From: a virus
Length of the DNA stretch: 38,335 nt
Direction: 5' to 3' (one strand)
IMG/VR virus record: IMGVR_UViG_3300010401_000058
Location: 1 to 38,335 of that record
In this document: positions 19,194 through 29,151 of the stretch, in pieces
Position numbering within the stretch: position 1 is the stretch's first letter
Layout: each line of letters starts with the position of its first letter
Notes under the pieces: generated by a model
The model's database searches: none
What the model saw: the letters and a program-made list of their open reading frames with translations, nothing else
What the model was told of the DNA's origin: nothing
Translations under genes and position numbers: made by a program

Positions 19194-20765
19194 ATGACCT
19201 GGGATATCCATGTTCCTCAAGGAAATGAGGGCGCGAAATGCAAATGGGAAATCGTCCAGTGGACACGGGGTCGGGGCTTGGAGCTCGGCTCGGGCATCCA
19301 GAAGCTCTACCCCCACTTCATCGGGGTCGATAACAAGAAGGACGAAGCCCTCTTCGGGCACCCGATCAATCCGGATATCCGGGTCGATTCCGCCGAGCGC
19401 ATGGACTTCTTTGCCACCGGGAGCATGGATTTCATCTTCTCCAGCCACCTGCTCGAGCACATCGAGCCTGAGCGGGTGACCGGAGCGCTCAAGGAATGGA
19501 TGCGTATCATCAAACCCAAGGGCTACCTCACGCTGTACCTGCCGGACGAGGATGAGTACCCTAAGGTGGGCGAGAACGGCGCCAATCCCGATCACAAGTG
19601 GAACGTGAACTACGCGCGTGTGATCCAGTACATGCGTGGCTCCGGCGGCTGGGATCTCATTGAATTTCAGAAGCGCAACCAAGAGAAAGAGTACTCGCTC
19701 CTCTTTGTGTTTCAAAAGACTAACTCCGGGCAGCATGAGAGTTGGAAGAAAAAAGAAAAGCCCAAAAAGAGTTGCGGCGTGGTCCGTTACGGCGCCTTCG
19801 GCGATTTGCTGCAGGCGTCTTCTGTGTTCGCGGGATTAAAATCCCAGGGCTATCACACCACGCTCTACACCTCCCCGCCCGGGGATGACATCGTCAAGCA
19901 CGACCCTAACATCGATGCGTTTTACTACCAGGACAAGGATCAGGTTCCAAACCATCTCTTGGGTGAGTACTGGGAGTACCACAAGAAGAAGTACGACAAG
20001 TGGGTGAACCTGTCGGAGTCTGTCGAGGCGTCCTTCCTCGCGATCCCGGGCCGTACGATGCACTTCTGGCCGCCGGCGCTGCGGCACCAGATGATGAACA
20101 AGAATTATCTGGAGGCGCAGCACGAGATCGCAGGCGTCCCCCACAAACCGCAGATCCGCTTCTTCCCCACCGAGGAGGAGAAGACCTGGGCCAAGAAACA
20201 ACGCGCCAAGATGGGCGACTTCCTTATCGCCTGGCCGCTCGCCGGCTCGTCCTGTCACAAGACCTGGCCGTACCTCGATCGCACGATCGCAGCCGTAATG
20301 CTCGATTTCCCGCAGGTGCATTTCGTTCTGATGGGCGGGGAGGCGTGCAAGCTGCTCGAGCAGGGCTGGGAGAAAGAAGCGCGCGTACATCGCACGTCCG
20401 GAGAATGGTCGATCCGCCAGTCTATGACGATGATGGGCGAAGTGCAGATGGCGATTGGCCCTGAGACCGGCCTCATGAACGCTGCCAGCCAGTACGACTA
20501 TCCCAAGATCGTCCTGTTGTCTCATTCGACGCATGAGAATCTCACACGGGACTGGACGAATGTGTACCCGATGGCGAGTGAGCACACCGTCTGCCCGGGC
20601 CGTGGTAACAACGAGGCCCCGGCTTGTCACCAGATGCACTACGGCTGGCAGACCTGCAAGCGCACCGAGAACGGAACCGCGCAGTGTCAGGATGACTTGA
20701 GCTTTGAGGAGGTGTATCGCACTCTCTGGCACGTGCTGCAGCGCGCCTTGGAGAAAGCGGCTTGA
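19194..20765 (+). CDS. methyltransferase-GT9 glycosyltransferase fusion
   Basis: A 523-residue two-domain enzyme with a strong GGAGG ribosome binding site. Residues 1-185 form a class I SAM methyltransferase: RGLELGSGIQKLYPHFIGVD (SAM loop), then MDFIFSSHLLEHIEPERV and IIKPKGYLTLYLPDEDEYPK. From about residue 190 the sequence changes to a GT-B enzyme of the GT9/ADP-heptosyltransferase type: CGVVRYGAFGDLLQASSVFA, a large central linker, and MAIGPETGLMNAASQYDYPK at the donor site. GT9 enzymes transfer heptose to LPS. Neither domain appears truncated. A second methyltransferase and GT-B pair is encoded separately at 4993-6707. Substrates are unknown. Confidence 0.75.
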   Translation: MTWDIHVPQGNEGAKCKWEIVQWTRGRGLELGSGIQKLYPHFIGVDNKKDEALFGHPINPDIRVDSAERMDFFATGSMDFIFSSHLLEHIEPERVTGALKEWMRIIKPKGYLTLYLPDEDEYPKVGENGANPDHKWNVNYARVIQYMRGSGGWDLIEFQKRNQEKEYSLLFVFQKTNSGQHESWKKKEKPKKSCGVVRYGAFGDLLQASSVFAGLKSQGYHTTLYTSPPGDDIVKHDPNIDAFYYQDKDQVPNHLLGEYWEYHKKKYDKWVNLSESVEASFLAIPGRTMHFWPPALRHQMMNKNYLEAQHEIAGVPHKPQIRFFPTEEEKTWAKKQRAKMGDFLIAWPLAGSSCHKTWPYLDRTIAAVMLDFPQVHFVLMGGEACKLLEQGWEKEARVHRTSGEWSIRQSMTMMGEVQMAIGPETGLMNAASQYDYPKIVLLSHSTHENLTRDWTNVYPMASEHTVCPGRGNNEAPACHQMHYGWQTCKRTENGTAQCQDDLSFEEVYRTLWHVLQRALEKAA

Positions 20766-21799
20766 CGACCAGCAATTCTTACTCCTTCAACGTGACCCTC
20801 ACCGACATGGTGCGTCACATCATGTTGAACCTGGGGGCGATCGGGGAGTCGGAAGTCCCTACCGCGCAAGAGTTCGCGGACGTTCAATTCAAGATCAACA
20901 TGTTGGTCAAGCAGTGGATGGCGAAGCAAGACTTCGCTCCAGGACTTAAGGTCTGGACCCGACAACAGGGTGATCTGTTTCTCGGATACTCCAAGTTCCA
21001 ATATCAGCTGGGTCCGGGTGGGGACAATTGGGCGGTAGGCGTAACCGGTGGAAGTCCGGGGCAATGCTCCAATGCGACAACCGTAAAAACGACTGTGAAT
21101 GCAGGGTCTACTACGGTCCCGGTCAATTCCATCGTCAACATCAACAACGGAGATTTCATCGGTATCGCTTATGCGGCTGCCTCCGGTGGAACCGATCTGT
21201 TCTGGACTACTGTGAATGGAGCACCTTCAGGGTCCAATGTCACCATTTCAGCCGTGGCTCCAGCAGGGGGATTCGCAGTCGGCGCACAGGTATTCAACTT
21301 CACGACCAAGGGACAAAGACCAGAGGCGATAGTGACCGCGGTTCTTAGGGATATCTATACCAACGACACACAGTTGAATCCTCTGAACCGTGAAGATTAC
21401 GACGCCCTGCCCACCAAGCAGATGCCGACCTTCCAGGCCGACCCCACCGCTTACCTGTACGAGCCCCAGATCGGCGCAGGGCCTCAGGAAACTGTCGGTT
21501 GCGGACAGTTCTTCATTGATTGCGGCGGCGCTCAGGATGTCACCAAGAAGATCTCCGCGACCTGGTACCGGCCGGTTCAGGATCTCAACAACCCCGGAGA
21601 CAATCCCGAGTATCCTCATGAGTGGTACCGGGCGCTGGTATGGGGCGGGACGCTTGACTGCGCGGGCATGTTCGATGCCGTGGTGACGCAGGATATGCAG
21701 GAGAACTACAAGGAATCGCTGCTCATCGCTCAGCAAGCCAATACCGAAACCACAACGTTCTACTTCCAGCCGAACGCGGGTTCGCCGTACGATCCGTAG
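20762..21799 (+). CDS. P22 gp4-like tail accessory (connector) protein
   Basis: A 345-residue protein from TTG 20762, with GGAGAAAG upstream and its TTG overlapping the previous TGA. It has the pattern of the P22 gp4-type head-to-tail adaptor: MVRHIMLNLGAIGESEVPTA, QFKINMLVKQWMAKQDFAPG, then an inserted beta domain (residues 100-180), and a conserved C-terminal part with YPHEWYRALVWGGTLDCAGM. It would bind the portal ring and prepare it for gp10-like proteins. The adjacent gene encodes that partner. The match is by overall pattern. Confidence 0.7.
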   Translation: MTTSNSYSFNVTLTDMVRHIMLNLGAIGESEVPTAQEFADVQFKINMLVKQWMAKQDFAPGLKVWTRQQGDLFLGYSKFQYQLGPGGDNWAVGVTGGSPGQCSNATTVKTTVNAGSTTVPVNSIVNINNGDFIGIAYAAASGGTDLFWTTVNGAPSGSNVTISAVAPAGGFAVGAQVFNFTTKGQRPEAIVTAVLRDIYTNDTQLNPLNREDYDALPTKQMPTFQADPTAYLYEPQIGAGPQETVGCGQFFIDCGGAQDVTKKISATWYRPVQDLNNPGDNPEYPHEWYRALVWGGTLDCAGMFDAVVTQDMQENYKESLLIAQQANTETTTFYFQPNAGSPYDP

Positions 21800-21817: not shown

Positions 21818-23260
21818 GTGCCCCTCTTTGGCAATGGAATTGCCGGTAAGTCGCAGGTCATCACGGCGCAGCGCCGGTTGAACGTGTATCTGGAGAATCG
21901 CGAGGACGGCGACAAGACCAAAATCGCCGTGATCGGAACTCCCGGCTTGAGTGCGTCCTTCACGTTGGGATCGACCTCTTTGCCCATGCGCGCCCTGTCC
22001 GGGGACGCCAATTACCTCTACGCGTGTCAATACAACCAGTTCCTTGAGGCCAATCCGGCCAATGGGACCACGCTCAATTCCGGAAGCTTGGCGACCTTCT
22101 CGGGCCTGTGCTCCATGGCGGTGAGCCCGACTCAAGTCGTCATTGCCGATGGCAATACGGGCTACGTCTTCAACATCGTGACCAACACGTTCACGACGCT
22201 GATTTCGGGCTCGACGTGGCCTGCCGTGGGAGCCCGTACGGTGACCTTCATCTCCGGGTTCTTCGTGGCCGAACAGCCCGGCAGCCAAGCGTTTTGGGTC
22301 AGTAACGCGTTTGACGGCTCAACCTGGGGGGCCTTGTCCACCGCGAGCGCATCCTCCGATGGCGACACCATCCAGGCGGTTGACCAGCTCTCGGGCAACC
22401 TCATCATCTTCATGGGACGCGGCATGGAGTACTGGCAGAACGTGGGCGCCTCGCCCCAACCGTTTCAGCCGGTGCTCTCGGCCTTCAATCAGTGGGGCCT
22501 GGGCGCGATTTTCTCGCGCGCTCATTTGAACCAGTCACTCTTTTTCCTAGCCGTCAACACCAATGGCACGGCCCAGGTGGTAAAAGCCAATTACTACTCG
22601 GTGAATGTGGTCTCGACCTCGGATCTGGAATCGATTATCAACGGGTTCTCCACTTTCTCCGATGCCGTGGCGCTGACCTACAATGCCGGCAAACACCCGA
22701 TGTATCAGTTGACCTTCCCCACCGGGAATAGGTCTTTCCTGTATGACGACAACACCGGCATCTGGAGCGAGGTCCAGACCGGAACCTCCGTCATCCCGAC
22801 CCGACACTGGGGGAACTTGTCCGCTGTCGCGGCCGGTTCTAACTTTATCAGTGACTTCGCGAGCAATCAGATTTATCAGATGAATCCGAATCTGTACACG
22901 GACAACGGCCAGACCATCATCCGCCAGATCATCACGCGCCATGTCCTCTCACAGTTCAATCGCGTGCGCATCTCACTGCTGTATCTTGACATGGAAACCG
23001 GCGTGGGACTGCAGAGCGGCCAAGGTTCTAACCCGCAGATCATGCTGAAGAGCTCGAAAGACAATGGGCGCACTTGGAGCGCAGAGCGCTGGGCGCCGTT
23101 GGGCAAGATCGGCTTCTATTTGTGGCGCGTCATCTGGCGCCGGTTCGGCTCGGCGCGAGACTACGTGTTCTCGATCACGATGAGTGATCCGGTGAAATTC
23201 GTGATTACCGAGGGGGCCATCAAACTCTCGGAACGTCAGCCCGGGGAGAAATTGGGATGA
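21818..23260 (+). CDS. P22 gp10-like packaged-DNA stabilisation protein
   Basis: A 480-residue beta-propeller-like protein. It begins MPLFGNGIAGKSQVITAQRR followed by NVYLENRED, the N-terminal signature of gp10-like tail hub proteins that plug the portal channel. Repeating beta blades (NLIIFMGRGMEYWQNVGA, then NQWGLGAIFSRAHLNQSLFF) and the end RWAPLGKIGFYLWRVIWRRF support this. The annotated start is GTG 21818, but an ATC at 21809 in the same frame sits better behind the GGAGATAG element and would give an N-terminus closer to what homologs usually show. It acts with the gp4-like protein. Confidence 0.75.
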   Translation: MPLFGNGIAGKSQVITAQRRLNVYLENREDGDKTKIAVIGTPGLSASFTLGSTSLPMRALSGDANYLYACQYNQFLEANPANGTTLNSGSLATFSGLCSMAVSPTQVVIADGNTGYVFNIVTNTFTTLISGSTWPAVGARTVTFISGFFVAEQPGSQAFWVSNAFDGSTWGALSTASASSDGDTIQAVDQLSGNLIIFMGRGMEYWQNVGASPQPFQPVLSAFNQWGLGAIFSRAHLNQSLFFLAVNTNGTAQVVKANYYSVNVVSTSDLESIINGFSTFSDAVALTYNAGKHPMYQLTFPTGNRSFLYDDNTGIWSEVQTGTSVIPTRHWGNLSAVAAGSNFISDFASNQIYQMNPNLYTDNGQTIIRQIITRHVLSQFNRVRISLLYLDMETGVGLQSGQGSNPQIMLKSSKDNGRTWSAERWAPLGKIGFYLWRVIWRRFGSARDYVFSITMSDPVKFVITEGAIKLSERQPGEKLG

Positions 23261-23535
23261 GCACCAATCCCGTTCAACCCGGCCTTTCCCCTATCCCCAT
23301 CCGGGTGCCCATTGTGGACCGGGACGGTAAGCCCACTCCGGTGTGGCAGGCGTGGTTCAATTCTGTCTACACGTGGTGTGTGGGGAACGGGCAATCGGGA
23401 GCCACGGGAGCGCGTCCCACGGTGGGGTTGTTTGTCGGACGGCAGTACTTCGATACGACGTTGGGTTACATGATCGCGGTCAAGCAGGTGAGCCCGTCTG
23501 TCATCTGGGTGAATGGCGCGGGGACGCCGGTATGA
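23257..23535 (+). CDS. small tail-associated protein
   Basis: A 92-residue protein whose ATG overlaps the gp10-like stop. After LSPIPIRVPIVDRDGKPTPV it has WQAWFNSVYTWCV, then TGARPTVGLFVGRQYFDTTL and SPSVIWVNGAGTPV. The last segment is a short beta unit often seen at the ends of phage tail and fibre proteins. It probably belongs to the tail machine or its fibres. Its stop overlaps the SET-domain gene (ATGA). Confidence 0.6.
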   Translation: MSTNPVQPGLSPIPIRVPIVDRDGKPTPVWQAWFNSVYTWCVGNGQSGATGARPTVGLFVGRQYFDTTLGYMIAVKQVSPSVIWVNGAGTPV

Positions 23536-23894
23536 GTTTCGATTCGATGCTGGCGGAATTCGGTCTGACGCTGGAAGTGCTACGACCGCTGTACGAATCT
23601 CTGGAGGATCAAATCCCGTTCGATGGCTCCCAGGTGGTTGAGACGGGTCTTTCAGCGGTAGATGGGATAGGAATATTCTCACAGCGCTCTTTTGAACCCG
23701 GAGACTGTGTTGCCCTGTGTCGCCATGGCAGAAAACGTACACCCGTAGGACGCTATACGAACCACAGCGATTCCCCCAACGCTCGAGTGATACACATTGA
23801 TACCGACCTGTACCTCGAGGCAATCAAACCCATTGCGTTAGGAGAAGAGATTTTGATCGATTATCGCGAGGCCTTTAGAGTGAGTCATGAATAA
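23532..23894 (+). CDS. SET-domain protein (putative lysine methyltransferase)
   Basis: A 120-residue protein starting at ATG 23532, within an ATGA overlap. The SET hallmarks are visible: GLSAVDGIGIFSQRSFEPGD (residues 39-58), RYTNHSDSPNA (74-84, like the family's Arg-x-x-Asn-His-Ser-x-x-Pro-Asn) and GEEILIDYRE (104-113, like Gly-Glu-Glu-Leu-x-x-Asp-Tyr). It is shorter than eukaryotic enzymes and lacks a Cys-rich post-SET, although the SAM and Tyr sites are present. SET proteins use SAM to methylate lysine side chains. The target is unknown, and could be a host or virion protein. It is followed by a dioxygenase in a 8-bp overlap. Confidence 0.75.
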   Translation: MSFDSMLAEFGLTLEVLRPLYESLEDQIPFDGSQVVETGLSAVDGIGIFSQRSFEPGDCVALCRHGRKRTPVGRYTNHSDSPNARVIHIDTDLYLEAIKPIALGEEILIDYREAFRVSHE

Positions 23895-24423
23895 CTTCGT
23901 ACGACTCACCACGGGCGCGAACGTCAACCCGCTTTTGATCCAACTCCTGCGCCATCCGCAGTTGTGGGACAAGGAGCACATTGCAGGCAAGTGGAAACCC
24001 CATCATCCTGAGATAGAGGTGAGCGAAGTCCTGGTCCGCTATCCCTCCATGGACGATGAAGTGGATGAGATCCAGTGTGCCTGGACTGCCGCTTCGGCCT
24101 CATTGCCGGCCGCCCGAGACCTGGCCATGAGCGTCATGTCGCATGTGCGCGGTGAGCAGTTGGGACGGGTGGTGATTACGAAATTACCGCCCGGCAAGGT
24201 GATCTATCCCCACGCGGATACGGTGGGTAAATACTCTCAGTGGTATACCCGGTTCCATGTTCCGATCCAATCGGAAGAGGGCGTCATATTTGCGTGCGGA
24301 GAGGAAAAAACCACGATGTTCTCCGGTGAGTTGTATTGGTTTGATCACTCAAAGTTGCACTCCATCGAGAACCGCAGCAAATCAGACCGCATCAACATGA
24401 TTGTGGATGTGAGGCTTTCATGA
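23887..24423 (+). CDS. AspH-like 2-oxoglutarate Fe(II) dioxygenase
   Basis: A 178-residue protein overlapping the SET gene by 8 bases. It contains the double-stranded beta-helix features of aspartyl/asparaginyl hydroxylases: LGRVVITKLPPGKVIYPHAD with the His-x-Asp metal pair (His109, Asp111), GKYSQWYTRFHVPIQSEEGV, the distal His in WFDHSKLHSIENRS (about 158) and the 2OG-binding Arg in SDRINMIVDVR (about 168). It would hydroxylate a side chain using 2-oxoglutarate and O2. The target is unknown; the neighbouring SET protein invites the idea of a shared substrate. Confidence 0.7.
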   Translation: MNNFVRLTTGANVNPLLIQLLRHPQLWDKEHIAGKWKPHHPEIEVSEVLVRYPSMDDEVDEIQCAWTAASASLPAARDLAMSVMSHVRGEQLGRVVITKLPPGKVIYPHADTVGKYSQWYTRFHVPIQSEEGVIFACGEEKTTMFSGELYWFDHSKLHSIENRSKSDRINMIVDVRLS

Positions 24424-24959
24424 GCGAATACCTGATTCCGGTTGAGCCGATGGACAGCTTGCCGGCCATGCCGTGGGCTGAAAAGTTGGCGTACTTGGCT
24501 TATGAATTCCGCCAGTTGGAGCAAGTCCCCTGTCCGTTGGAGCATGGGTTCGAGGGAACTGACTACGTGCGCCGAATCGCTATCCCTAAGGGGACGTTGT
24601 TTATCGGGCGCATCCACAAGATAGGTCATGGGGTGGAGCTCCTATCAGGCTCTGTCCTTCATATCCGCGAGAAATGCCGTAGAATCGTGCACGCTCCGTT
24701 TGAGCTTAAAACCCAGCCTGGGGATCAAGTTTGCGCGCTGGCACTCACAGACATTACGGCTAAAACGGTGCATCCTGCGCAAGGGTGCACAGACATCGAA
24801 GCGCTGGAAGAGCGCTATTTTGAGACAGCGCAGTCTTTGATTGATCAGGGCGAGAAAGTCCATGAACGCCTAGAGAGGATTACCTATGAGCGCGATAGCC
24901 GCAGCGGTTGGGGTCGCGGCAGTAGTGGGGGCCACCGCTACAGTTGTGGCCGGATCTGA
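24420..24959 (+). CDS. cupin-like protein
   Basis: A 179-residue protein starting in an ATGA overlap with the dioxygenase. The middle reads VRRIAIPKGTLFIGRIHKIG, then HGVELLSGSVLHI, and TQPGDQVCALALTDITAKTV with His118 following. This is a small cupin-type barrel with possible metal ligands (His66, His70, Glu73, His118). The last 20 residues (RSGWGRGSSGGHRYSC) are the out-of-frame reading of the ejection-protein gene start, so the true domain likely ends near residue 157. Phage tail and capsid regions carry proteins like this; their role is uncertain. Confidence 0.55.
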   Translation: MSEYLIPVEPMDSLPAMPWAEKLAYLAYEFRQLEQVPCPLEHGFEGTDYVRRIAIPKGTLFIGRIHKIGHGVELLSGSVLHIREKCRRIVHAPFELKTQPGDQVCALALTDITAKTVHPAQGCTDIEALEERYFETAQSLIDQGEKVHERLERITYERDSRSGWGRGSSGGHRYSCGRI

Positions 24960-25719
24960 ATCCGCCAGTGCCACCCGAGATGCCACCAATGCGTCGATAG
25001 CTGCCCAGCAGAGCGCCCAGCAGAGGCAGGAAGCTGGAAACGCTCCTTATGCCGCTATTGGTACGGGCACCCCTGGCACCCCCGCGCACGCCGCCACGCC
25101 GGCTCATCCGGGCATCCCCCAACTCGGCATCCCGGCCTCGGCAGGGACGCCGGCTACAGCCGCCACGCCGGGCACCACGGGGGCGATCCAGCAGTACCAG
25201 AATCTCTTGGGTCTGGGGCCGCAAGGCACTGCGGGTATCGAAGCCTCCCTCGCGGCCACCCCCGGTTACCAGTTCGCCAAGAACCAGGGCATGCAAGCCA
25301 CCCTGAACGCGGCGACCCTGACTAATCCGGGTGCGGTTTCCGGCAACACACTGGAAGCGCTAGATAGGTTTTCCACCGGCCTTGCGGATTCCACGTATCA
25401 GAACGCTTTGGGGAACGCTCAGAACGCCGTGACCATCGGCCAGAACGCCGCCGCCGGCACCGGAGCGGGGATCTTGCAGACGGGCGCGAATGTGGGCAGT
25501 GCGCTCATCAACCAAGGCAATACCATCGCCGGCATCAATGCCAACCAGGCCGCAGGACTCAGCAAGGTCGCCTCCGGTGCGGCGAGCAACTACGCCACGC
25601 TGAGCACGCTCAACAACCTCAATTCCGTAGGACCGGATACCAACTGGATCAGCGGTCAGAACAATCTCGCTGCCGGGCAGATCGCCGATCAGCCGGTGGC
25701 GCCGATTGCTCTAGGGTGA
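24886..25719 (+). CDS. DNA ejection (internal virion) protein 1
   Basis: A 277-residue protein with GAGAGG as ribosome binding site. It begins with a hydrophobic Ala/Val helix (MSAIAAAVGVAAVVGATATV), then a Pro/Thr/Ala/Gly repeat (about residues 58-97), and a helical body (TPGYQFAKNQGMQATLNAAT, then NTLEALDRFSTGLADSTYQN). This body is what I associate with the small ejection proteins of podoviruses, which leave the head and form a tunnel in the cell envelope. The first of three consecutive ejection candidates, it overlaps the cupin-like gene by 74 bases. Confidence 0.7.
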   Translation: MSAIAAAVGVAAVVGATATVVAGSESASATRDATNASIAAQQSAQQRQEAGNAPYAAIGTGTPGTPAHAATPAHPGIPQLGIPASAGTPATAATPGTTGAIQQYQNLLGLGPQGTAGIEASLAATPGYQFAKNQGMQATLNAATLTNPGAVSGNTLEALDRFSTGLADSTYQNALGNAQNAVTIGQNAAAGTGAGILQTGANVGSALINQGNTIAGINANQAAGLSKVASGAASNYATLSTLNNLNSVGPDTNWISGQNNLAAGQIADQPVAPIALG

Positions 25720-25726
25720 GGGGATC

Positions 25727-27130
25727 ATGAGTTTCGACCCATCCGTTATCAGTCAGATCGGTGAGCAGCCGGACTTCGGCGCCGCCATCGGTAAGGGATT
25801 TCAGCTGAAGGATTTGGCGAATGAGACCTCGCTTAAGAACATCGAGGTGCGCAAGGCCAAGCGGGACGAGGAGCAATCCAGCTTTCTGTCCGGTCTCTCC
25901 AAGCAGTACGACATCACCAAGCCCGATCAAGCCTCCAAGGCCGCCTCCAAGGCCGCCCAGGCGGGCTATCCCGGCCTGGCGGCCGGCGTCCTGAAGCAAT
26001 CCCAGAGCCTCCAGTTGGGCCAGGCGCAGATCCAGGAGATGCGCTTTCAGGCCGGCATGCAGGCGCAGACCCGAATCGACGAGGGAGTGCAGGGGATCCT
26101 CGCGAGCGTCAAAGCCCAAACCAGCGGCCCGGACGGTCAGCCGTTGCGTACGCCGCAAGGCACGGAGAAGTACGACAGCCGCACCAAGGACGCCATGACG
26201 ATGGCGGCGGTGCTCAAGTTCAAAAAGGACTTGGAGGATGATGAGTCCATGGGTCCAGAGGCCAAAAAAATGGCCATGGCGGAGATCAACAAATACTTGG
26301 CCTCCGGCCAGCCGATTACCTACGACGGCATCAACGCGGTGGCCAAGTCCACGAAGACCGGGCGCGAGATGTTCGACAAGGAGATCGAGCGTCGTAACAA
26401 GTTGAGTGAGATCCAAACTCGGGAAGCGGGATTGGAAGAGCGTAAGCGTCATGACTTAGCGACTGAGACGCTCGCGACCAAAAAAGCCGCGCCCGCCACT
26501 GACTTGAGTCCCGAGGCCCGTAGCCTCTACGACGAGCTTGTCGCTCGAGATCCCAGCTTCCTGTCCAGGCTCTCCAACAAAGGGATTGAAGAGCGCAACA
26601 AGGTTCTCGAGGACTGGGCCAAGCAGGGCAAGACCGCCGATCAGGTGATTGGTTCGCGCGCGGGTACGGTGGCCACCAAGACTGAAGCCTCCGTCCTGGG
26701 CCGGCGCGAAGCGGCCATCCTGCCCGTCGAGCAGTCGATCACCAAGCCCGGCGGGTTCCTGGATCAAGCCGAGTCGGCCGTCAACTCGGTGAATCTGTCG
26801 AAGCTCAAAGCGGCCGGCAAATTTGAGAGCTGGTCGAAGGATCAGATGTCAGATCCGGATCTCACGCGCTACCGCGCCGCGGTGGCCGAGCTCCGTGCTG
26901 AATACGCCGTCGTACTCTCTAAGGGCGGCCAGGTGACGGACGCCGCGAGGCATGAGTCCGAGAAGGTCATCCCCGATCTCATTACGCCCGCGCAGTTCAA
27001 GAGCATCAAACAGGTCGTGCAGCAGGGGATTCAGGCGTCCAAGACGGGGGTGGAGTCGAGTCTGGCTGGGGTGACGAAACCCGCAGATGCATCCGGCGGT
27101 AACGTCGTGCACTGGGACGATCTGAAATAG
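25727..27130 (+). CDS. DNA ejection (internal virion) protein 2
   Basis: A 467-residue, mostly helical protein. It begins MSFDPSVISQIGEQPDFGAA and continues through charged Ala/Lys/Gln helices, without a globular catalytic site, as in large internal proteins of short-tailed phages. A DSRTKDAMTMAAVLKFKKDL segment and a C-terminal SVNLSKLKAAGKFESWSKDQ stand out. Such proteins are packed in the head and injected with DNA. The stop TAG shares a base with the GTG of the next gene. Confidence 0.65.
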   Translation: MSFDPSVISQIGEQPDFGAAIGKGFQLKDLANETSLKNIEVRKAKRDEEQSSFLSGLSKQYDITKPDQASKAASKAAQAGYPGLAAGVLKQSQSLQLGQAQIQEMRFQAGMQAQTRIDEGVQGILASVKAQTSGPDGQPLRTPQGTEKYDSRTKDAMTMAAVLKFKKDLEDDESMGPEAKKMAMAEINKYLASGQPITYDGINAVAKSTKTGREMFDKEIERRNKLSEIQTREAGLEERKRHDLATETLATKKAAPATDLSPEARSLYDELVARDPSFLSRLSNKGIEERNKVLEDWAKQGKTADQVIGSRAGTVATKTEASVLGRREAAILPVEQSITKPGGFLDQAESAVNSVNLSKLKAAGKFESWSKDQMSDPDLTRYRAAVAELRAEYAVVLSKGGQVTDAARHESEKVIPDLITPAQFKSIKQVVQQGIQASKTGVESSLAGVTKPADASGGNVVHWDDLK

Positions 27131-28608
27131 TGGACGTTCAGCTCCCTGATGGGTCGATCCTCAAGGGGGTTCCAGACGGGACCACTAAGGATCAGATCGC
27201 GCAGAAGCTTCAGGCCAACGGTAAGACCGTACCGCAGGAATGGTTTGCGCCGAAAACGGCCTCCTCCCCAAAAGTCGAAGAGCCCGGGATAGGTTCAAAG
27301 TTAGTCAGTGCCGCAGTGCGTCCGATCGCTAAGGGTGTGGCGGCATTGCCCTTGATGGCGATGGATGCCGGGGTAGCCACGCGAAACCTCGTTGAGGGAC
27401 GCGATAAGTCCGGTCAGTACCCTTACGAGCTGCCTTCGAGCATGTTCAACAAAGCGCTGGACTCAGCCACTTTTCCGCCTTCGGGTGCGGGGAAAGTGGC
27501 TGAGGAAGTTTCAAGCGCCTTGGTAGGGGCTGCTGCGGGACCTCAAGTTCCAAAATCTGCGGCGGCAACGCTAAAGCCAGAAGCTCAGGCGGCCCGTAAC
27601 GCGGGCTATGTCTTACCACCCTCTCAGGCCCGCCCGACCTTACTCAACCAACTCGCGGAAGGCTTTTCAGGGAAGATTAAAACCGGACAACTCGCGAGCC
27701 AAAAGAACCAGGAGGTCACCAACGGGTTGGTACGCAAAGCCTTGGGACTAAAGCCCGGTGCACCGATCACAGTGGATACCCTAAAACAGGTGCGCGCTCA
27801 AGCGGGCAAAGCCTATGCGGCACTCGACAAGGCCGGTGACATCGACACTGATCCTGACTTCCATAAGGCGGTAGCCTCCATCGGGCGTCGATATGCGACA
27901 AGTATGAAGGCGTTCGGGCGCGGTAAAGACCATCCGGTCAGTGAGCTTGTAGGCCGGCTATCCAGTGTTCAGACGTTCTCAGGAGAGGAAGCGTCCAACG
28001 AGATCAGCCTACTGCGCGAAGAGGCTGAAAAGGCCGCAGCGAATCGCGATAAGGGCACCGCAACCGCGATGCGGCAAGCTGCTACCGCGATTGAAGATCA
28101 GATCGACCGTCACTTATCTCAGTCAAACCCTAAGTTGATCGATGATTTTCGACACGCCCGACAGCTCATTGCGAAAACTTATTCGGTACAGAGCGCTCTG
28201 GATCGGGGCACGGGGGATGTGTCTGCGGCGAAGTTGTCGAGCCAGTTAGGTAAGGATAAGCCGTTATCGGGTGAGCTGAAGAAAGTGGCCGAGGTCGGAA
28301 CTGCCTTTCCGAAGGCTACTCAGCTCCCAAGTAAGATGGGCAGCGTAACTCACTTCAGTCCCCTCGATACGGCGGTGATGGGCATGGAGGGGGCTTCCGG
28401 CCTGACGGCAGCGATAGCCGCAGGGGACAGTAAAGCTGCGGCGGCGGCAGCCGTGGCGATGGCCGTGCAAGCGTCTCGACCGGCTGTGCGCGCCGGCTTG
28501 TTATCGAAAGCGGGACAGAAATTGACTCTCGAGGGCGCACCAGCCGCGACACAGGCACTGAAGAAAGCCACCCTAGCCGAGTTGCCTCAGCGGGAGATCG
28601 GCAATTAG
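27130..28608 (+). CDS. DNA ejection (internal virion) protein 3
   Basis: A 492-residue protein from GTG 27130, whose GTG overlaps the previous TAG by one base. The N-terminus VQLPDGSILKGVPDGTTKDQ is a phrase repeated in phage internal proteins. A hydrophobic stretch (VSAAVRPIAKGVAALPLMAM) is followed by helical charged body sequence (ALGLKPGAPITVDTLKQVRA), and Ala-rich C-terminal helices around residues 415-450 (AAIAAGDSKAAAAAAVAMAV) could insert into a membrane. It completes a three-gene ejection set. Confidence 0.65.
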   Translation: MDVQLPDGSILKGVPDGTTKDQIAQKLQANGKTVPQEWFAPKTASSPKVEEPGIGSKLVSAAVRPIAKGVAALPLMAMDAGVATRNLVEGRDKSGQYPYELPSSMFNKALDSATFPPSGAGKVAEEVSSALVGAAAGPQVPKSAAATLKPEAQAARNAGYVLPPSQARPTLLNQLAEGFSGKIKTGQLASQKNQEVTNGLVRKALGLKPGAPITVDTLKQVRAQAGKAYAALDKAGDIDTDPDFHKAVASIGRRYATSMKAFGRGKDHPVSELVGRLSSVQTFSGEEASNEISLLREEAEKAAANRDKGTATAMRQAATAIEDQIDRHLSQSNPKLIDDFRHARQLIAKTYSVQSALDRGTGDVSAAKLSSQLGKDKPLSGELKKVAEVGTAFPKATQLPSKMGSVTHFSPLDTAVMGMEGASGLTAAIAAGDSKAAAAAAVAMAVQASRPAVRAGLLSKAGQKLTLEGAPAATQALKKATLAELPQREIGN

Positions 28609-28686: not shown

Positions 28687-29151
28687 ATGAAATCCCTCCG
28701 AGAAAGGCTCTACGGTAAGTTTATCGTACACCCGAAAACTAGGTGCTGGATATGGACTGGCGCACAAAGCGATCGAGGTTATGGGCGCATGTGGAACAAA
28801 TACACGTACGAGTACGCTCATAGGGCCTCTTATGTTCACCACAAAGGTGAAATCCAGGACGGGATGTTCATCTGCCATCACTGCGACAACCCATTATGTA
28901 TAAATCCTGAGCATCTATTTGTCGGAACCGCTCAGGAGAACTTTGATGACATGCACAGCAAAGGACGCTGCAAGCTGGGTATGCATCCCATGAAAGGGGA
29001 AAATCATGGGCTCGCCAAACTTACAGAATCTCAAGTCCGTGAGATTAGGAACTCAACGGAGCAGGGCGTTTCCCTAGCCAGGAAATTTGGGGTAACAACA
29101 GGGTTGATTTCTATGGTCAGAAAGAATCTGCGCTGGAAACATGTGGCGTGA
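28687..29151 (+). CDS. HNH homing endonuclease (HNH_3 type)
   Basis: A 154-residue protein after the ejection genes. The N-terminal HNH_3 core is plain: CWIWTGAQSDRGYGRMW, YEYAHRASYVHHKGEIQDGM, and FICHHCDNPLCINPEHLFVG (Cys63, Cys66, Cys71, catalytic His-His and the Asn/His of the second motif). The C-terminus (LAKLTESQVREIRNSTEQGV, then LARKFGVTTGLISMVRK) is an HTH for DNA recognition. It has no obvious ribosome binding site, unlike the other two intact endonucleases. Its TGA overlaps the GTG of the ATP-grasp gene by the GTGA pattern. Confidence 0.85.
   Translation: MKSLRERLYGKFIVHPKTRCWIWTGAQSDRGYGRMWNKYTYEYAHRASYVHHKGEIQDGMFICHHCDNPLCINPEHLFVGTAQENFDDMHSKGRCKLGMHPMKGENHGLAKLTESQVREIRNSTEQGVSLARKFGVTTGLISMVRKNLRWKHVA

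Follow-up and report, generated by a model that had tools for sequence, protein, structure and literature searches.

Gene organization of the locus

The window, i.e., the whole stretch of 38,335 nt that was analysed (positions 1–38,335 of the IMG/VR record IMGVR_UViG_3300010401_000058), carries three enzyme-type genes between the gene for a gp10-like head-closure protein and that for a gp7-like ejection protein (ej1), a place hereafter called the slot. Relatives are referred to by locus number (L), and a tilde marks gene fusions. The genes and features of the region are as follows:

20,762–21,799, plus strand: gp4-like tail accessory factor (phrog_12985, E = 2e-14; synteny with gp4-type genes beside gp10 in relatives), backbone upstream of the slot
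21,818–23,260, plus strand: gp10-like head-closure protein (phrog_578, head closure Hc3, E = 2e-83), left anchor of the slot
23,257–23,535, plus strand: 92-aa small tail protein with homologues in L009–L011; backbone homology to L009 stops just after it
23,532–23,894, plus strand: SET-domain methyltransferase, 120 aa (Pfam SET, E = 2.4e-9; NHS, GxG, and Y motifs), first cassette gene
23,887–24,423, plus strand: AspH-like Fe(II)/2-oxoglutarate (2OG) hydroxylase, 178 aa (Pfam PF05118, Asp_Arg_Hydrox, E = 2.2e-13), second cassette gene
24,420–24,959, plus strand: cupin, 179 aa, with an H66/H70/H118 triad (phrog_12032, phrog_24280, phrog_34170; AlphaFold2/Foldseek), third cassette gene
24,886–25,719, plus strand: ej1, gp7-like ejection protein (phrog_598, DNA ejection, E = 1e-12), right anchor of the slot and proposed substrate
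24,886–24,963, plus strand: leader of ej1, ~26 residues (MSAIAAAVGVAAVVG...), which in relatives changes along with the cassette
25,727–27,130, plus strand: ej2, second ejection protein (by position and synteny in relatives), used here as the control gene
27,130–28,608, plus strand: ej3, third ejection protein (by position and synteny in relatives)

The preliminary description of this DNA had placed the three genes between tail and ejection genes and had reported overlaps of 8 bases (SET/AspH) and 4 bases (AspH/cupin), all of which is confirmed here, with three real open frames flanked by gp10/Hc3 on the left and the gp7-like ej1 on the right. In addition, the SET gene shares its first 4 bases (23,532–23,535) with the upstream 92-aa gene, and the last 74 bases of the cupin frame run into ej1, whose start at 24,886 lies inside the cupin frame and has GAGAGG just upstream. 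Four-base ATGA overlaps are ordinary in phages; chance does not explain that the slot is used repeatedly, nor that the same families pair and fuse time and again, as described below. The gp4–gp10–gp7-like order around the slot is that of the head-tail module of P22-like podophages. Similarity to L009 (74% by blastn) extends up to position 23,537. The SET gene has the lowest GC3 of the region (0.52, vs 0.68–0.78 in gp4 and gp10), in keeping with a foreign origin. A role in anti-phage defence is unsupported, as PADLOC returned no match to known defence models for any cassette protein, and a prophage origin is largely excluded, with two matches in 85,000 genomes. Just downstream of the ejection genes lies an HNH endonuclease gene (28,687–29,151; phrog_1872, E = 1e-31), and a 523-aa ORF (19,194–20,765) that immediately precedes the gp4-like gene has a weak match of ~65 residues to the "methyltransferase" phrog_22502 (E = 2e-5).

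Active sites of the cassette proteins

The SET protein contains the glycines of the GxG motif (G45/G47), N77-H78-S79, and the catalytic Y111, and among 73 family sequences NHS, G47, and the tyrosine are 98% conserved; PBCV-1 vSET is among its PDB matches. The AspH protein has the HxD...H iron triad (H109, D111, H158) and the 2OG-binding R168, which are conserved at 95% in 80 sequences, the remainder being gaps. Because the motifs are conserved across the two families, both enzymes look catalytically competent. Searched against the PDB, the AspH profile matched best to L-proline cis-4-hydroxylase (4p7w, E = 1.8e-8), followed by the proline hydroxylase 1e5r and then AspH, and it shows weak similarity to LpxO (E = 0.0016). 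The likeness to L-proline cis-4-hydroxylase would fit the N-terminal proline of the ej1 leaders found with AspH and cupin, not the valine of those found with AspH and GNAT (see below). SET enzymes usually methylate lysine. The ej1 protein of L017, a cupin~SET locus, contains no lysine at all, which rules out lysine methylation of ej1 as the general function of SET; the SET target in that locus must therefore be the terminal amine or another protein.

A Pfam search gave no match for the window cupin. Its AlphaFold2 model, computed as a single chain like all models used here, is predicted with a pLDDT of 89 as a compact single-domain cupin fold in which no fibre features were seen, and Foldseek related this jelly roll to manganese/metal cupins such as TM1459 (E about 1e-5). 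Among its PHROGs matches, the N-terminal part of phrog_34170 matches the window cupin and its C-terminal part the window SET, and two others bear the names "short tail fiber protein" (phrog_12032) and "tail fiber adhesin" (phrog_24280). These names look like a misannotation that has spread to many records (X14, BA3, VvAW1, Vibrio phages); for the family member in the window, the model shows a compact metal cupin. The three-His site H66/H70/H118 is intact in the window cupin, as it is in 17 of 23 cupins that stand alone and in all 6 next to AspH, compared with 3 of 39 SET fusions and none in the GNAT fusion. This distribution suggests that free cupins may act as metal enzymes and that those joined to a transferase may serve in binding or positioning.

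Contents of the slot in related phages

Relatives were found in viral contigs through SET, through AspH, and through gp10 regardless of the slot, supplemented with cultured phages, and were classified by profile searches over their ORFs. Among the cultured phages, Pseudomonas phage PfAn1 has AspH+GNAT, Rhodoferax phage P26218 a cupin~SET fusion, and Shewanella phage X14 and Thalassomonas phage BA3 a cupin. In most of the ~150 loci, some of whose contigs were sampled twice, the same slot was present in the order gp10, then AspH GNAT, cupin~SET, SET~cupin, cupin, AspH cupin, GNAT, or nothing, then ej1. AspH followed by a GNAT acetyltransferase dominates and is present in the great majority of a first set of 84 AspH loci and in 68 of 73 in a second. 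The SET-cupin fusions amount to 47 ORFs (40 cupin~SET, 7 SET~cupin), cupin alone occupies ~20 loci of the gp10-anchored set, AspH lies next to cupin in 6 loci with both gene orders represented, and GNAT alone also fills the slot in some loci; one cupin~GNAT fusion (L198) and one AspH~GNAT fusion (L112) were seen. Enzyme-free slots, in which gp10 is followed by a small tail gene and then ej1, were found in L261, L264, L265, L242, L255, and L257. The gp10 of these empty-slot phages is up to 87% identical to that of cassette carriers such as L232. Single-protein pattern scans of viral contigs with the window cupin and AspH found nothing; the cupin alignment holds no stretch conserved enough for such a scan. 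Literature searches of open-access papers yielded no description of the cassette.

SET and AspH occur together only in the window among ~100 SET loci and 84 + 73 AspH loci, and the closest relatives by gp10, L009 (84% identical) and L011 (~64%), carry cupin alone, so that a conserved trio is rejected. The preliminary description had proposed the trio as one modification pathway, and had named random gain and loss in relatives as the observation that would speak against it. Gain and loss are indeed frequent, and by this test the trio is therefore not a fixed pathway, yet the contents and the place are restricted, and the idea of joint action survives in the form of families that pair, fuse, and use the same slot.

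Several marine contigs (L156–L163, L149–L155, L160, L161, and similar) carry a stand-alone gene of the window's SET family next to a Cpn10-like (GroES-type) gene, with apparent terminase and portal genes downstream of SET. In 16 loci, SET is directly preceded by a gene for a second, unrelated 2OG oxygenase; phages of another lineage thus also combine SET with a 2OG oxygenase. Limnohabitans phage DC33 (PQ492659.1, L003), although filed under Inoviridae, has a 39-kb genome with AspH and GNAT of the podophage slot type, and its filing is probably a taxonomy error.

Cassette swaps and the origin of the window set

The exchange of whole cassettes can be followed at the DNA level. The loci L071/L073, which carry AspH+GNAT, and L122/L123, which carry a cupin~SET fusion at the same spot, are ~95% identical in DNA along 4.6 kb that end a few bases into the cassette; from a point within ej1 onwards, L071 and L122 match again at 89%. 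On the gp10 tree the cassette changes ~43 times. In the protein trees, the window cupin falls among the cupins fused to SET (nearest L137, support 0.97), the window AspH groups with GNAT-paired AspH (L041, L042), and the window SET is nearest to L040 and L125 with weak support. The likeliest origin of the window set would thus be a composite, in which a SET-cupin pair, unfused and permuted, was joined with an AspH from an AspH-GNAT cassette.

The leader of ej1 follows the cassette

The first residues of ej1 track the cassette, which is a new finding of this analysis. With start codons assigned by rule (the start nearest to the cassette end, ATG preferred) and counted on unique leaders, AspH+GNAT loci have leaders of the M-V-A type (V2 in 48 of 54, A3 in 46 of 54), and V-A at residues 2–3 occurs in 47/54 of them vs 0/84 of the others. 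Leaders of cupin~SET loci are of the M-S-[GA] type (S2 in 27/29, G or A at position 3 in 26/29), with S/A-G/A at residues 2–3 in 23/27. Cupin-alone leaders are of the M-x-[WF] type, having T, S, A, or P at position 2 in 21/21 and W or F at position 3 in 16, and P-[WF] is found in all eight loci with AspH and cupin or AspH alone (L093, L094, L097, L114, L117, L119, L222, L004). For L004, P-[WF] was predicted from the rule before its leader was read; its cupin~SET relatives L006 and L008 start with M-S-G. Among cupin-alone loci, M-P-W is limited to L232 and L236, both of whose cupins fall inside the subclade of AspH-paired cupins (support 1.0). Loci without a cassette gene, including empty slots, have mixed, other leaders. 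With M-S-A, the leader in the window belongs to the SET type, whereas the cupin-only L009 and L011 have M-S-F. Exceptions to the rule are L148 (M-S-F), L281 (M-S-L), L027 (M-S-W), and cupin-only isolates with M-S-V or M-S-M. Nearly all cassette-associated leaders have a small second residue, which allows removal of the initiator methionine.

Clade structure alone is insufficient to explain this co-variation, because the control gene ej2 does not follow the cassette. At a gp10 identity of 35–50%, residues 2–3 of ej1 agree in 56% of comparisons with the same cassette and in 0.4% with a different one, vs 8% and 11%, respectively, for ej2. Among pairs with ej1 bodies at least 50% identical, which are not independent of one another, residues 2–3 agree in 233 of 293 same-cassette pairs and in 0 of 146 different-cassette pairs. 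The codons differ within a class, with TCN about as frequent as AGY for Ser2 and all four valine codons in use for Val2; therefore it is the residue that is kept and not the DNA. A start/stop overlap (ATGA) as the cause of Ser2 was rejected as well, since about half of the cupin~SET loci are spaced otherwise and TCN is as frequent as AGY.

In the second AspH set, V-A stands at the start of 41/63 leaders, and ~13 more have V-A-A-A behind an extension of 15–23 residues, where the valine codon is mostly not a start codon. The carriers include L301, L304, L319, L327, L333, L337, L343, L349, L351, and L359, and several of the extensions before VAAA are of the type MKKLRGE.KQD..LDG..RYC[GNK]. With VAAA lying 15–23 residues inside the protein, an exposed N-terminus at this place would need leader cleavage. 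The extension may be a cleavable leader, by analogy with P22 gp7, whose 20-aa N-terminal leader is removed by a host protease (PMC4992974), namely oligopeptidase A (OpdA; PMC8402733).

Discussion

Alongside the directly observed slot, swaps, fusions, active-site motifs, and leader co-variation, we propose a mechanism that we regard as on balance probable, namely a swappable slot with interchangeable sets of modifying enzymes that would act on, or be read out by, the N-terminal leader of ej1. As a pattern, the exchangeable modification slot and the ej1 leader that matches it have good support; as a mechanism, their support is moderate. The slot between gp10 and ej1 of P22-like podophages would hold sets of SET, AspH-like hydroxylase, and GNAT acetyltransferase, together with a cupin that may be a metal enzyme or, in transferase fusions, a partner domain free of metal. 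Each set would act on the leader encoded by the next gene, so that the first residues of the leader change with the set, and the window would represent a composite of SET and cupin from the (normally fused) SET-cupin lineage with the AspH of an AspH-GNAT cassette and a SET-type M-S-A leader. The enzymes may chemically modify the leader or the mature N-terminus of ej1, and such a modification could tune its maturation, packaging, or membrane entry. GNATs often acetylate N-termini. The target address, i.e., the front end of ej1, is better supported than the chemistry of the modification. The ejection proteins had already been named as candidate substrates in the preliminary description, a proposal that gains unexpected support from the cassette-specific start of ej1. 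The lysine-free ej1 of L017 counts against lysine methylation. A bolder version, which we consider possible but rather doubtful, is that exchangeable podophage cassettes tailor the ej1 front end through a leader code (V-A, S-G/A, P-W/F, x-W/F), as in a leader-guided modified peptide, and that SET, AspH, and metal cupin in the window would give a composite modification seen nowhere else.

Phages are known to modify their own virion proteins with their own enzymes, for instance by capsid glycosylation. The window would resemble this in having virus-encoded enzymes that alter the virus's own structural proteins, and would differ from it in using methyl, hydroxyl, or acetyl chemistry and in directing an exchangeable cassette, matched to the leader, at an ejection protein. 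The natural cupin~SET fusion of phrog_34170 (Rhodoferax phage P26218 gp30, Pseudoalteromonas PH1 gp49) sits in the same slot and is homologous to the window cupin and SET, whereas in the window these are separate, in reverse order, and have AspH between them, and the cupin keeps its metal triad. As in P22 gp7, ej1 is the first ejection protein after gp10, and the likeness would extend to a leader of ~20 residues that is processed before assembly; in P22, however, the processing enzyme is a host protease, whereas here modifying enzymes of the phage are encoded directly upstream and the first leader residues vary with them. P22 with the gp7 leader deleted still reaches ~60% burst (PMC8402733), which counts against a mechanism that acts through the ej1 leader, as do the exceptions to the leader rule and the VAAA motifs that lie inside the protein. 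In the Bcep22-like phage JC1, a GNAT (gp63) occupies the same slot, its neighbours being the head-closure protein, a small virion-associated protein, and the virion-associated protein that follows, but it stands as a single GNAT that was read as a host-directed moron, and no link to the neighbouring virion proteins was proposed (PMC9144972).

Since the leader physically adjoins the cassette, a serious rival is that cassette and leader are merely inherited as one recombination unit and that the enzymes act on the host or on other virion proteins. The cassette end contains the ribosome-binding site and start of ej1, and the leader follows immediately, often overlapping the last cassette gene, so that linkage explains part of the co-variation; the L071/L122 crossover inside ej1 and the L017 ej1 that lacks lysine despite a SET point the same way, and in the window the leader could simply have arrived with its cupin, both deriving from a SET-cupin cassette. 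Linkage alone, however, fits poorly with residues 2–3 that are fixed within a class despite different codons (TCN/AGY for Ser, four for Val) while the rest of ej1 diverges, with a P-[WF] start that follows the AspH and cupin subclades in both gene orders, even where the protein downstream escapes recognition by the ej1 HMM, and with V-A-A-A being kept even behind N-terminal extensions, and we therefore hold this explanation to be unlikely.

The slot might also be a permissive intergenic site that gathers unrelated, host-directed moron or auxiliary genes with no common target, as could be concluded from the JC1 acetyltransferase in the same position being called a moron (PMC9144972), from the placing of the DC33 AspH under metabolic potential (PMC12195039), and from the frequent gain and loss. 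The limitation to a few protein-modifying families plus a cupin, repeatedly fused or paired, and a neighbouring ej1 leader that follows the cassette make this improbable. We give still less credence to a structural role of the cupin as a tail or fibre protein that would itself be modified by SET or AspH instead of ej1. The names of phrog_12032 and phrog_24280 (short tail fiber, tail fiber adhesin), the annotation of X14 gp38 as "Unknown function structural gene", and the frequent fusion of cupin to a transferase agree with such a role; against it, the window cupin is predicted to be a compact single-domain metal cupin like TM1459, its His triad is kept in unfused proteins (17/23 alone, 6/6 with AspH) and lost in fused ones (3/39 keep it), as fits an enzyme, and no mass spectrometry was found that places the cupin in a virion.

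Ejection proteins, which are highly variable, form the channel through which phage DNA crosses the cell envelope. If the proposed action on ej1 is true, an enzyme slot that can be read from the first residues of an ejection protein would represent a new layer in virion maturation and would explain several families whose present labels are "short tail fiber protein", "moron", or hypothetical. The loss of the metal site in fused cupins, together with the repeated fusions among cupin, SET, GNAT, and AspH, defines a set of protein-modifying enzymes with a proposed substrate.
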